Part shown: piece by piece, positions 7,913 to 17,968 of the stretch
How positions within the stretch are numbered: position 1 is the first letter of the stretch
Layout of the letters: every line of letters starts with the position of its first letter
The notes under the pieces: generated by a model
Told to the model about the DNA's origin: nothing
Databases searched by the model: none
What the model saw: only the letters and a program-made list of their open reading frames with translations
Translations under genes and position numbers: made by a program
Origin: an uncultured SAR116 cluster alpha proteobacterium
GTDB lineage: Bacteria; Pseudomonadota; Alphaproteobacteria; Puniceispirillales; Marisalimonadaceae
Reading direction: 5' to 3'
DNA length: 64,000 nucleotides
NCBI GenBank assembly: GCA_902517815.1
Contig: CABYED010000001.1
Location: 124,001 to 188,000 of the forward strand

Positions 7913-8404
7913 TTATTTTTGTGTACGCTCAGAAATTGTAGGAGCTGGCTTCATTTCCATATCCCACGGAAAATATATCCATGTATCTTGAGAAACTTCT
8001 GTTATAAATGTATCAACCTGTTCCCTACCACTTGGCTTAGCATATACTGTTGCATAATGAGCATTCGGCAAGCTTGATCTTATAGCTTTAATAGTTTCAC
8101 CAGTATCTACAAGATCATCAACTATTAGCCAACCTTCACCATTATTAGCTACGCTAGATTCTTTCAAAACTTTTATATCACCCTTAGTTTTTTGACTGTA
8201 AGATAAAACACAAAAGGTATCGATTAATCTGATATCTAATTCTCTGGCTACTATAGCTGCAGGGACCAGCCCTCCTCTTGTAACAGCAATTATTCCTTTA
8301 TAAGGATTCAATTCAGATAAACGCCAAGCTAAAGCTTTGCTATTTCTGTGTATCTCTTCCCAAGACACTGGAAAAGATTTGTCATAAATATTTATGTTAC
8401 TCAT
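7913..8404 (-). CDS. gpt: Xanthine-guanine phosphoribosyltransferase
   Basis: A 163-residue purine salvage enzyme that makes GMP or XMP from the base and PRPP. The PRPP-binding loop is [10 protein letters not shown] (about 96-104), with the two adjacent Asp residues of type I PRTases. VTRGGLVPA is the second family block. I chose the ATG at 8404 ([11 protein letters not shown]) because the 15 extra upstream codons are AT-rich and look untranslated. Gpt versus a hypoxanthine enzyme is judged from the length and the C-terminal FPWDMEMKP. Confidence 0.9.
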
Positions 8405-8449
8405 AAGCCTTATATAAAAAATTAAATAAATGTTAATATAACAAAACAT

Positions 8450-8854
8450 AACAAAGCAAAATAATAATTATTATAGACTGAATAAAATTAATAAATTGAT
8501 AAGTTAAACTAATCGTAATCGTTGAGACACTCTTTTACAAGCCAACAATTTTCAGTAGTCATGCCGTGATTACTAATCTTAGGAGAATTTGGAGATTTCT
8601 TAAAAAATTAATATTAAGTCAATCCTTGACTAAGAGAGTAGTTAAAATAATTAAGTAGGTTTTTATTTTATTCTTAAGGTAAAACCTCGCATGTTTAGCT
8701 AAGAATGTTTTTCATTGATTTAAGTTACAGATTTTGAAAAAATATATTAATTTTTAAAAATCTAGGTGCCTCCATAAGCACTCCCACTTTTAATGACCAA
8801 ATCTAATAACTTTCATATATTTGATAAATTTGAATTTTTGAATGTGATTATTTA
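8450..8854. other. Gene-free spacer left of the tRNA-Arg island
   Basis: About 400 bases without a convincing reading frame on either strand. I see no clear terminator hairpin and no tRNA. It separates gpt from the first copy of the tRNA-Arg upstream region, so it may contain the outer edge of the accessory region. Confidence 0.5.
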
Positions 8855-9033
8855 TTCGATTGTTTAAAGAGTGCGTGATTTGTGATAGGTAAGTAGATGT
8901 TTGATGTTTTTTTAGTCAATTTGATGTATAAAAGTGCCGCTACATGTGGTACTACATAAAATGTCTAAAAATATAGCTAAAAAAGTCAATAAAAATAATG
9001 CGCTCGTAGATCAGCTGGATGAACACTAGACTA
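8855..9033 (+). repeat. Diverged first copy of the tRNA-Arg upstream region plus tRNA 5' half
   Basis: This stretch matches 10996-11173 in order and length (179 versus 178 bases), by eye at roughly three-quarters to four-fifths identity. Shared blocks include GTGATTTGTGATAGGTAA, CTACATAAAA and AGCTAAAAAAGTCA, followed by the tRNA 5' half. The match stops inside the tRNA anticodon loop. It is best read as a displaced or duplicated promoter plus 5' half of the tRNA-Arg gene. Confidence 0.85.
9000..9033 (+). pseudogene. Truncated and decayed 5' half of tRNA-Arg
   Basis: The sequence starts with the acceptor strand GCGCTCGTAG and keeps most of the D arm and the 5' anticodon stem (CACTAGACTA). 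It then departs abruptly from the intact tRNA at 11139 at the anticodon. It has a C-to-A change in the D stem and lost bases after GGAT. The 3' half is absent, so it cannot make a tRNA. Confidence 0.85.
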
Positions 9034-9117
9034 TTAATTGAAGTTTAGGTTTCATATACTATTTAGTGATCTACTTTTCAATTCAACTTGATAATAAATA
9101 TGTAGGATAAATAAATA

Positions 9118-9894
9118 ATGAAAAAAATTTTAATATTTGGCTTGCCAGGGTCTGGCAAGTCTACTCTTGCAAATAAGTTATCCAAGAAACTAGATTGTTT
9201 ACATCTAAATGCTGATGAAGTTAGGGAAAAGTTCAAAGATTGGGATTTTTCTGATGATGGTAGATTAAGACAAGCATACAGAATGAAACAATTAGCTGAA
9301 GAAAATAAAAATCAATATATCATTTTAGATTTTGTTTGCCCAAAAAAACAATATAGAAACATAATCTCTCCAGACATTTCAATCTTCATGGATACTATTG
9401 TAAAAGGAAGATTTAAAGACACTAACTCTATTTTTGAAAAACCTACAAAGGAAGAAAAAGTTAATTACATATTTAAAACTTTTGATTCTGATAAACACGT
9501 TCAAAATATTTTAAAAAATCTAATCACATTTAATTGGCGAAATCCAACTGTGCAAATGTTGGGCAGATGGCAACCTTTTCATGATGGGCATGTAGCCTTA
9601 TTCAAAAGGGCATTTAAAAAAACTAAGCAAGTTGTCATCCAAGTTAGAGATTGTCAAGATTGGAATAACAGTAACCCTTTCAATTATTACGATATAAAAA
9701 ATGGCATTATAAAAAAATTGTCGCAAGAAAATTTTGTACTAAATAAAGATTATGTAATAATGTTAGTGCCAAATATAATTAACATAACTTATGGAAGAGA
9801 TGTTGGATATAAAATTGAAGAAGAAGTTTTTGATGAAAAGATTAAAAACATTAGCGCGACAAAAATTAGAAAAAAAATGGGATATGATAAATAG
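9118..9894 (+). CDS. Fusion of APS-kinase-like P-loop kinase and HxGH nucleotidyltransferase
   Basis: A 258-residue two-domain protein. The N-terminal half has a P-loop GLPGSGKST (8-16) and an APS-kinase-like stretch with NADEVR (31-36) and DWDFSDDGRLRQA (41-53). The C-terminal half is a NadM-like nucleotidyltransferase with GRWQPFHDGH (149-158) and ISATKIRKKM (245-254). Comparable fusions are often labelled nicotinamide-nucleotide adenylyltransferase. It precedes a sulfotransferase by 66 bases, which suggests a role in making an activated sulfate or sugar donor, but this is inference. It lies between two tRNA-Arg copies and so is probably acquired. Confidence 0.8.
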   Translation: MKKILIFGLPGSGKSTLANKLSKKLDCLHLNADEVREKFKDWDFSDDGRLRQAYRMKQLAEENKNQYIILDFVCPKKQYRNIISPDISIFMDTIVKGRFKDTNSIFEKPTKEEKVNYIFKTFDSDKHVQNILKNLITFNWRNPTVQMLGRWQPFHDGHVALFKRAFKKTKQVVIQVRDCQDWNNSNPFNYYDIKNGIIKKLSQENFVLNKDYVIMLVPNIINITYGRDVGYKIEEEVFDEKIKNISATKIRKKMGYDK

Positions 9895-9960
9895 CAAATA
9901 AACGCTCTGAAATAATTTATTAATATACATAAGTCATTATTTTTAAAAAATGGTTTGCAA

Positions 9961-10755
9961 ATGAAAAATATAATTTGGTTAGCAAGTTATCCTAAAAGTG
10001 GTAATACTTGGTTGAGAGCAGTATTAAGTTTTGCTTTATATAATAACTTAGATATTAATAAATTAAGAATTAATTCATTAAATAATATTATCAAAAATTT
10101 ATATCCTAATCATGATAGAAAAGAACCTGGAGAAGTTAAAAATTATTGGGATATTGCGCAACAAACCATTTCAAAGAATGCTGGTTCTAATAATGTTATT
10201 ATCAAAACACATAATATATTTGGAAATATTGGTGGTATAAATTTTCCAAATAAAGAGTTTACTTCTAAGATAATTTATATTGTTCGAGATCCAAGAGATG
10301 TTTCTATATCGTATTCACAACATTTTGGTATAGATTTAAATACTGCTGTAGAACGTCTATTAAAAAAAACAAATTTTATTTTTGATAATGAAAATAATTT
10401 AGGTGAAGTACTTTCATCTTGGCAAAATCACGTTAATTCATGGACTAATTCAGATATACCAAAAATAATTATAAAATTTGAAGATTTATTAGTAGATCCT
10501 AAATCAATAATTATAAAATTATTTCATTTTTTAAAAATTAAACCTCGCATTTCTGTTGGTAAAATAATTGAAAAGACTTCTTTTAAAAATTTACAAGATA
10601 AAGAAAAAAAAATAGGATTTGCAGAAGCAAGCTCTAAAACCTCACTTTTTTTTAGAAATGGTAATAAAGATCAATGGATAAAATATGATAAAAAAAATTT
10701 TAAACCCATAACTGTGAATTTTAGAAAAACTATGAAATCATTTAACTATATCTAA
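9961..10755 (+). CDS. PAPS-dependent sulfotransferase
   Basis: A 264-residue cytosolic-type sulfotransferase-fold protein. The 5'-phosphosulfate loop is YPKSGNTW (10-17), and the 3'-phosphate site is IVRDPRDVSISY (107-118). These bind PAPS; the acceptor cannot be told from sequence. The ATG at 9961 is preferred over a TTG two codons upstream. It follows the APS-kinase-like fusion gene within island segment A and is very AT-rich. A surface polysaccharide or small-molecule target would fit but is not shown. Confidence 0.85.
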   Translation: MKNIIWLASYPKSGNTWLRAVLSFALYNNLDINKLRINSLNNIIKNLYPNHDRKEPGEVKNYWDIAQQTISKNAGSNNVIIKTHNIFGNIGGINFPNKEFTSKIIYIVRDPRDVSISYSQHFGIDLNTAVERLLKKTNFIFDNENNLGEVLSSWQNHVNSWTNSDIPKIIIKFEDLLVDPKSIIIKLFHFLKIKPRISVGKIIEKTSFKNLQDKEKKIGFAEASSKTSLFFRNGNKDQWIKYDKKNFKPITVNFRKTMKSFNYI

Positions 10756-10995
10756 ATCATCCAACTATGTAAGCATATAAATATTTGTAAAATCTAAAGA
10801 TATATTGTTAAAATTTTGAAAGGTTTTTTTAGATATTTATTCTAAAACTTAAAACCATATAACAGTTTTTTTTCAAATTATCTTAATGTTTTTAGAGTTT
10901 AAATGGATTTATTTATTAGTTTTATAATATTTAGTTTGATTATCATTTTGATATCATCGATTGGTATAGCAGTTGAAATACTGGTTAATTGTTTT
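10756..10995. other. Gene-free spacer before the second tRNA upstream copy
   Basis: About 240 AT-rich bases with no supportable gene. With the repeat copy that follows, it makes a gap of nearly 400 bases before the tRNA. Confidence 0.4.
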
Positions 10996-11173
10996 TTCGA
11001 TTGTTTGAAGAATAAGTGATTTGTGATAGGTAAAGAAATGTTTGGTTTTTTTAGTAAAATTGAAGTATTAAAGTGGTAATATATGTGGTGCTACATAAAA
11101 CAGCCAAAAATTGAGCTAAAAAAGTCATTAAAAACAATGCGCTCGTAGCTCAGCTGGATAGAGCACTAGACTA
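10996..11173 (+). repeat. Second copy of the tRNA-Arg upstream region, running into the intact tRNA
   Basis: Matches 8855-9033 and is the copy in front of the functional tRNA. A promoter is plausible: TTAAAG and TACATA spaced 18 bases apart are kept in both copies (TAAAAG in the first). This would place transcription start about 35-40 bases upstream of the mature tRNA. The promoter call is tentative. Confidence 0.8.
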
Positions 11174-11215
11174 CGAATCTAGGGGTCAGGGGTTCGAATC
11201 CTCTCGAGCGCACCA
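11139..11215 (+). tRNA. tRNA-Arg (anticodon ACG)
   Basis: A complete 77-base cloverleaf with encoded CCA. The acceptor stem GCGCTCG pairs with CGAGCGC. The D stem GCTC/GAGC, the anticodon stem CTAGA/TCTAG and the T arm with TTCGAAT are present. The anticodon ACG is at 11173-11175; its A34 would be edited to inosine to read CGU, CGC and CGA. The gene is the attachment site of the integrase at 11321: partial copies of its 5' half (9000-9033) and 3' half (17902-17968, 22798-22832) flank the accessory segments. Confidence 0.97.
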
Positions 11216-11250: not shown

Positions 11251-11282
11251 TAGATATTAAATACACCTCAGTGAATACTCAG

Positions 11283-11305
11283 TTTTGACACAGATTTGAC
11301 ACAGT
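11283..11305 (+). repeat. Left end repeat: tandem TTTGACACAG, candidate integrase arm site or promoter
   Basis: Two copies of TTTGACACAG separated by one A lie just upstream of the integrase gene. The whole 23-base block recurs identically at 17818-17840 near the right end. Each unit also contains TTGACA, a -35 consensus, so it may be the integrase promoter, an integrase binding site, or both. Confidence 0.75.
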
Positions 11306-11320
11306 AAAAGGAGTCAAAAT

Positions 11321-12304
11321 ATGGGTTGTGTTCGTAAAAGAGGTAAATCTTGGAACGCTCAAGTTAGAATATCTGGATGGAGAAGTTTTACAAAAACATT
11401 TAAGACCAAATTAGATGCAACTGAATGGGTTTTTAATTTTGAAAAAGAACTTAGGTCAAAACCAATTCCAGAAAAAGATATTAAAAGTTTAAAGTTAAAA
11501 AACTTATTTAATAAATATAAAGTAGAAATTCTTCCCAAGTTAAAAAGTTATAAAATTGTTTGTTTTAAGTTAAATGTTTTATCTAGATCATGGTTAGGTG
11601 AGATCAAAGTTATAAATTTAACAAAAAGACATTTAGAACAATTTTGTGCAGAAAGAAAATTAATAGTCAAAGATGGAACTATTAAATCTGAATTGATGTT
11701 AATTAAAAGAGTTTTTAAAATTGCAACAGACAAATGGAATTATGGGATACCATTTAATGCTTTTAATGGACTTGACATCCCCTCACCTCACAAACCACGA
11801 ACTAGACGACTTCTTTTAAATGAATTATCTGTACTTATCTTTAATGCAGAAAAACAGAGAAACAAATACATCTCCACTATCATTCAATTTGCAGTGGAAA
11901 CTGGAATGAGAAGATCTGAGATACTAAAACTAACCTGGAATGATGTAAACCTAGATACTGGAATTGCCTCCTTGTATGACACTAAAAATGGGGACGATAG
12001 ACATATTCCATTAACTAAGATTGCTATAGAATTACTATCTAATCTAACCAAATCATCAGAGTTTGTATTTCCTATCTCTGCTAATTGTTTAAGACTTGCC
12101 TGGGAGAGATGTAGAAACAAATCTAATATAAAAGGATTAAGGTTTCATGATCTAAGACATGAAGCAGTATCAAGGTTTTTTGAAATGGGTTTATCAGTTC
12201 CAGAGGTTGCATTGATATCTGGTCATAAAGATGTAAGACAATTATTTAGATATACTCATCTTAAACCAGAGAGTCTAATTGCTAAGTATTCACAAATATT
12301 TTAA
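11321..12304 (+). CDS. int: Tyrosine recombinase/phage-type integrase
   Basis: A 327-residue integrase with an N-terminal arm-binding-like region (about 1-50, KTFKTKLDATEWV), a SAM-like core-binding domain (about 55-155) and a catalytic domain. The catalytic set is complete: R197 in TGMRR, K222 in TKNGDDRHIPL, H276 and R279 in HDLRH, H302 in SGHKD, and nucleophile Y311 in RYTH. A Shine-Dalgarno AAAGGAG precedes the ATG. Position next to tRNA-Arg shows it targets this gene. It appears intact and may be active. Confidence 0.95.
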   Translation: MGCVRKRGKSWNAQVRISGWRSFTKTFKTKLDATEWVFNFEKELRSKPIPEKDIKSLKLKNLFNKYKVEILPKLKSYKIVCFKLNVLSRSWLGEIKVINLTKRHLEQFCAERKLIVKDGTIKSELMLIKRVFKIATDKWNYGIPFNAFNGLDIPSPHKPRTRRLLLNELSVLIFNAEKQRNKYISTIIQFAVETGMRRSEILKLTWNDVNLDTGIASLYDTKNGDDRHIPLTKIAIELLSNLTKSSEFVFPISANCLRLAWERCRNKSNIKGLRFHDLRHEAVSRFFEMGLSVPEVALISGHKDVRQLFRYTHLKPESLIAKYSQIF

Positions 12305-17799: not shown

Positions 17800-17817
17800 T
17801 AATTAAATACCCTCAGA

Positions 17818-17840
17818 TTTTGACACAGATTTGACACAGT
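17818..17840 (+). repeat. Right end repeat identical to 11283-11305
   Basis: All 23 bases match the block upstream of the integrase, including the tandem TTTGACACAG. Downstream, AAAATATGGGTT also matches the integrase start region, at a larger distance. So this is either a second integrase arm site or the remnant of a second integrase promoter and start. Confidence 0.8.
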
Positions 17841-17901
17841 TACGCAGTAAAATATATAATAATTAAATAATAAATCTGTGAGAAAATATGGGTTTGAAAG
17901 G

Positions 17902-17968
17902 GTCAACTGGATAGAGCACTAGACTACGAATCTAGGGGTTAGGAGTTTGAATCTTCTCGAGCGCACCA
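17902..17968 (+). pseudogene. tRNA-Arg 3' part (attR-like copy)
   Basis: From CTGGATAGAGC onward it matches the intact tRNA through the anticodon, variable and T arms to the CCA. There are a few transitions in the T arm, for example AGGGGTTCGAAT to AGGAGTTTGAAT. The acceptor 5' strand and most of the D arm are missing, so it cannot fold into a tRNA. It marks the right end of segment B. Confidence 0.9.

Follow-up and report, generated by a model that had tools for sequence, protein, structure and literature searches.

The window analysed here is a 64,000-nucleotide stretch of the 2.04-Mb genome of a SAR116-cluster alphaproteobacterium, and the relatives named below belong to the same cluster. 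Within it, a tRNA-Arg(ACG) gene is flanked on both sides by inserted DNA (Table 1). On its 5′ side, two similar stretches, 8848-9033 and 10989-11173, align locally with 83% identity over 188 columns (BLAST E 6e-48), and the copy-versus-copy local score of 213 stands against at most 39 across 300 shuffles. The homology takes in about 150 bp of upstream DNA together with the 5′ half of the tRNA gene, and it ends at 9033 and 11173, the first base of the anticodon (tRNA position 35 as placed by ARAGORN). A colinear match of about 179 bases ending in the anticodon loop had been reported in the initial annotation; the pairwise alignment bears it out, far above shuffled sequence, and moves its start roughly 8 bases to the left of 8855.

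The displaced fragment of the element spanning 8848-11173 is therefore a 5′ half, in the same orientation as the complete tRNA gene and upstream of it, with the island in between. Specifically, a one-base deletion and changes in the D-stem (TAGATCAGCTGGATGAAC) mark the left fragment as a pseudo-half. Many of the relatives are presumably single-cell genomes, judging from their AG- names. An artefact of single-cell amplification is ruled out by the 17% difference between the copies and by the recurrence of the arrangement in many genomes.

Table 1. Features at the tRNA-Arg(ACG) locus, in positions of the window.
Feature	Position	Strand	Basis
Anchor gene, presumably xanthine phosphoribosyltransferase-like (name read from the sequence by eye); adjoins tRNA-Arg(ACG) in uninterrupted relatives	7913-8449	-	Comparison with relatives
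Left (probably older) copy of the mobile upstream module; repeat TGCCGCTACATGTGGTACTACAT at 8935-8957	8848-8999	+	83% to right copy; closest G050, 85%
Decayed displaced 5′ half of tRNA-Arg, to the first anticodon base	9000-9033	+	Alignment to functional tRNA
Left end of inserted segment, past the crossover	9034-9117	+	Similarity to G030/G050/G055/G014 left ends within shuffle scores
Cargo: P-loop kinase/cytidylyltransferase-like (nucleotidyltransferase) two-domain protein, 258 aa	9118-9894	+	AAA_33, APS_kinase, CTP_transf_like
Cargo: sulfotransferase, 264 aa	9961-10755	+	Sulfotransfer_1, E 1.7e-25
Conserved right-end segment; behind the end of a WYL-domain gene in G050, G048 and G047	10897-10988	+	Comparison with relatives
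Right (current) copy of the mobile upstream module, abutting the functional tRNA; repeat TGGTAATATATGTGGTGCTACAT at 11074-11096; presumed promoter in use	10989-11138	+	Alignment
Functional tRNA-Arg(ACG); anticodon loop CTACGAA (presumed 7-bp overlap) at 11171-11177	11139-11215	+	ARAGORN; junctions in relatives
Candidate arm sites TTTTGACACAGATTTGACACAG of the 3′-side element, repeated near its far end (17812-17855)	11278-11307	+	Alignment
Tyrosine integrase, 327 aa, of the conventional 3′-side element	11321-12304	+	Phage_integrase, E 3.1e-27
Displaced 3′ part of the tRNA (positions 12-77), 92% copy; far end of the 3′-side element	17903-17968	+	Alignment

Between the two copies, the 258-aa kinase/nucleotidyltransferase shares 35-41% identity with five proteins of Stenotrophomonas, Xanthomonas and Clavibacter phages. 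No integrase was found within 9034-11173 among the window's open reading frames or profile matches. The repeats of the GGTGCTACAT type in the two module copies may well be integrase arm sites, as their position and the G030 case described below suggest. A search with this repeat for a cognate integrase gave no match in viral contigs, and the inspected matches away from the locus lay inside protein-coding genes. A scan for consensus promoters returned sites no more numerous than in shuffled sequence, such scans being uninformative in DNA this rich in A and T.

With respect to the native state of the site, the uninterrupted arrangement is present in close relatives. The anchor gene is followed by the tRNA gene, at a distance of 91-136 bp (about 100 bp), in 18 relatives from the window's genus and in two from the sister genus g3. 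These uninterrupted relatives have a native upstream sequence (..TTTTCTTACTTGATTATAATTATTTATGTAGATAAC..) in common, and this sequence is absent from both copies in the window. Comparison with island-free relatives, proposed in the initial annotation as a way to decide which copy is closest to the native one, thus singles out neither, and the idea that the left copy is the native one is rejected. Neither the native upstream region nor the native 5′ half was found anywhere in the window, and in the roughly 400 bp from the anchor gene to the left copy (8450-8847) neither that region nor any piece of the tRNA can be recognised; the relatives are thus the basis for reading a displacement of the native copy. 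In five genomes of genus g2, a module of the window's type lies directly between anchor gene and tRNA with no insert, so that there it is the resident upstream region, be it an ancestral feature or the relic of an earlier element.

Inserts between the anchor gene and the tRNA, accompanied by a module of the window's type, were found in 12 genomes of two genera, and they are about 1-13 kb long where they can be measured. The genomes are that of the window, G014, G019, G024, G026, G034, G048, G050, G052 and G055, with a spacing of about 1.3-13 kb, together with G005, where the insert runs to the contig end, and G030, where it is split over two contigs; fragmentation is general among these assemblies, and a good many lack part of the genome. 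In G050, two successive inserts make up the 13 kb. Behind the common module the cargo varies from genome to genome, and includes TPR-methyltransferases, nucleotide cyclase and WYL regulators, as well as proteins that we take, from reading the sequences and not from profile matches, to be an OGT-like glycosyltransferase and an acyltransferase-like protein. The cargo of G050 includes a Zorya II-like set (hits to ZorA2, ZorB2 and ZorE) and a type ISP restriction-modification enzyme; carried by the successive 5′-side inserts at L032:1438-5243 and L032:7934-12814, these genes are an instance of defence cargo stacked at one tRNA. Most of the 5′ inserts lack an integrase.

On the other side of the tRNA lies an element of the conventional kind, which restores the 3′ half. 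The segment 11216-17968 contains the integrase gene, a transporter that we take from its sequence to be auxin-efflux-carrier-like, an ABM protein, a DUF6974 protein, two further proteins and the displaced copy of tRNA positions 12-77, which was absent from the initial annotation. TTTGACACAG repeats occur at both ends. As this element sits on the other side of the same gene, the working tRNA is composite, with its upstream region and 5′ half on one side and its 3′ half on the other both derived from elements. A 72%-identical integrase is found at tRNA-Arg(TCG) in the relatives L059, L062 and L068. A further integrase, a 377-aa DUF6538 protein, directly follows tRNA-Arg in L034, L055, L064, L066 and L069 (97-98% identical, two genera). 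In L034, the tRNA end and the integrase's own upstream start recur in inverted orientation on the far side of the integrase, so the unit seems to have inverted-repeat ends. As a candidate mover of the 5′ inserts this protein is unsupported, since it also occurs behind native upstream regions (G022, G035) and sits on the 3′ side.

One alternative to a separate 5′-side element holds that the 11321 integrase placed both segments, using repeated loop cores in a tandem array. One anticodon loop does serve both segments, and in both the window and G014, which have 5′ inserts, that integrase lies on the right-hand side of the tRNA. Yet 5′ inserts occur without it beside the tRNA in G050, G055, G048, G024 and G034, and the GGTGCTACAT-type repeats of the module differ from its candidate arm sites (TTTGACACAG). 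Of the 5′ half, moreover, the 3′-side element retains at its far end just tRNA positions 12-35, and of the upstream module nothing. We consider this reading improbable.

At the left junctions of the inserts, displaced 5′ halves cut at the loop are kept in five genomes, namely G019, G030, G050, G055 and G014. G019 and G030 retain an intact native upstream region and tRNA positions 1-39 at this junction, where the cut comes immediately after CTACGAA and foreign DNA begins; the functional tRNA stands behind a foreign upstream module, 3 kb away in G019 and on another contig in G030. The cut position is identical in G050, G055 and G014, where the 5′ half is more decayed. No further intact displaced 5′ halves were found in the rest of the 136 genomes of the order, nor in 385 sampled across the class, by an exact pattern that leaves decayed ones uncounted.

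One of these left junctions also carries an integrase. On the G030 contig CAKZQZ010000045.1, a 424-aa tyrosine integrase with an intact frame (int424) begins about 170 bp past the loop. It matches the phrog_1 integrase family with E 3e-28, and Pfam Phage_integrase just under the cut-off; it is followed by a resolvase-like protein and then by genes of no named function. Homology to this integrase-bearing left end is seen in the left ends of the inserts in G050, G055 and G014 (scores 53, 41 and 44 versus null maxima of 30-32); those of the window and G019 are not recognisably of the G030 type.

These junctions bear on a second alternative, in which homologous exchange in the flanking genes brought the interval in from another genus, with no site-specific recombinase on the 5′ side. 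The general lack of integrases in the 5′ inserts would fit such an exchange, and the g2 genomes in which the module adjoins the anchor gene without an insert make that genus a possible donor. It is nonetheless highly improbable, given the native upstream region and 5′ half retained and cut at the loop in G019, G030 and, in decayed form, G014, the genus-like anchor gene of G014 and G019 (94-95% identical to that of the window), and the presence of int424 at the cut in G030.

The right module copy of the window is 89% identical to that of G048 and 87% to that of G014, versus 82% to the left copy. A single clade of all copies from the window's genus is rejected (AU p 8e-5), which indicates that the module moves between genera; for the two window copies as sisters, the test gives no formal rejection (AU p 0.19). 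Because the left copy is also of a foreign type, the simplest reading would be that the window has seen at least two rounds of insertion. A local tandem duplication of the upstream region and 5′ half, followed by insertion of two genes and decay of the left copy, had been offered as an alternative in the initial annotation; it accords with the colinearity and common orientation of the copies and with the sister relation left standing by the AU test, but it is disfavoured to the point of being highly improbable as well, since the upstream region native to the genus is unlike either copy, the copies in G048 and G014 match the right one better than the left one does, and five other genomes show the same stop at the anticodon loop, mostly beside different cargo.

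An exact 21-mer, GGGGGTACTTATGGGGGTACC, lies between the cut and int424 and again upstream of the functional tRNA of G030 (contig C71); as the ends of this element are on different contigs, we infer their linkage. The GGTGCTACAT-type repeats of the window are a different version from this 21-bp repeat. Elsewhere among 58 genomes of the family, GGGGGTACTTATGGGGGTACC occurs in two places only (up to 3 mismatches, control 0), in G015 and G055, each time at the far end of an element terminating in a displaced tRNA-Arg 3′ half. At the far end in G015 (L210, reverse strand, at the start of the reversed contig), the G030-type repeat stands with a vestigial tRNA 5′ half and the displaced 3′ half, and hence the same arms appear in the opposite mode. 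It is tempting, though decidedly tentative, to see here one family of attP arms working in two opposite modes, 5′-restoring with a functional 5′ half and upstream region (G030) and 3′-restoring with a vestigial 5′ half (G015, G055), the switch being made by gain or loss of a working 5′ half in attP. If so, expression of the tRNA would pass between host and element promoters. No relatives of int424 were found in viral contigs or phage records, and those in the order are G030 itself (100%) and three proteins at 27-30%, near which no intact tRNA gene was found. The integrase-less inserts may descend from elements with int424-type integrases or may have been moved by them in trans.

Taken together, these observations make it likely that 9034-11173 (about 2.1 kb) is a site-specifically integrated, 5′-restoring cargo element of a kind that has acted at least twice here, joined in the same loop by an independent 3′-restoring element. 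In the proposed mechanism, the attP of a circular form would consist of the module with its arm-site-like repeats, a promoter and the tRNA-Arg 5′ half up to the anticodon loop, and at the circular junction this 5′ half (..CTAGACTACGAA) would be joined to the left-end sequence. A tyrosine integrase would exchange strands within the 7-bp loop CTACGAA. Integration would strand the old upstream region and 5′ half at the left junction, severed from their 3′ half, and would join the upstream module and 5′ half of the element to the resident 3′ half to give a working tRNA. The left copy, itself of the mobile type and decayed, would then be the trace of an earlier round, and the independent 3′-restoring element, with its own integrase, would have entered the same loop from the opposite side. 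The G030 integrase or a relative could move the integrase-less elements in trans; we infer promoter activity and the order of events likewise. The suggestion in the initial annotation that an element brought its own promoter and 5′ half and displaced the native ones therefore holds for the upstream region and 5′ half, as the G019 and G030 junctions attest; the promoter is presumed, and the left copy of the window is not the native one.

For the features observed directly, namely the two copies, the native state in relatives, the left junctions cut at the loop, the spread across genera and one integrase-bearing left end, the best explanation would be that small mobile elements have repeatedly, and across genera, replaced the upstream region and front half of tRNA-Arg. 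Such small cargo elements, some with defence genes (G050), would thus have taken over the upstream region and front half of an arginine tRNA in a lineage of marine bacteria. Should the module be what drives the tRNA, a cell that lost the element and did not regain the host promoter would be left without this tRNA, and retention of the island would be favoured, a possible route to island stability. Island finders that are limited to 3′ fragments, or that demand an integrase, will miss elements of this kind.

Islands that restore the 5′ half are the rarer mirror image of the usual 3′-restoring tRNA island. Conventional islands such as the 11321 element have the tRNA and the loop in common with the 5′ element, whereas they restore the 3′ half and keep the native promoter. 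Tycheposons, a name that appears in PMC10872708, likewise carry cargo and sit at tRNA genes, in marine bacteria with small genomes; a tyrosine recombinase and a tRNA at the border are among their hallmarks, and the 5′ element of the window lacks such a recombinase. The principle of 5′-restoring islands is known and uncommon: in Islander, 159 of 3919 islands have a 5′ tDNA fragment (PMC4383910). The arrangement there is like that of the window, with the island between an upstream 5′ fragment and a full tRNA and the crossover in the anticodon loop, but an integrase encoded on the island is a criterion, and the 5′ element of the window has none. Repeated rounds at one locus with a 3′-restoring island opposite were not found described in the text consulted, nor did a limited literature search return a description of repeated insertion at a single tRNA by elements lacking their own integrase, combined with such an opposite island. 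Recombinant bacterial tRNA genes use the original promoter with very few exceptions (PMC8371274). The pTN3-like archaeal integrases, for which attB is the tRNA 5′ half and the tRNA is expressed from a promoter on the element side, a situation seldom met in bacteria (PMC8371274), resemble the window in both respects, the promoter being presumed here; in their case, however, integration splits the integrase gene, whose promoter then drives the tRNA, whereas int424 is intact and lies about 170 bp past the loop. Finally, dusA islands and SXT at prfC give a new promoter and 5′ part to protein genes (PMC8409611). Their targets are protein-coding, and dusA expression has been measured; they insert at the 5′ end of a gene with an element-supplied promoter and 5′ part, just as is proposed for the tRNA-Arg element of the window.
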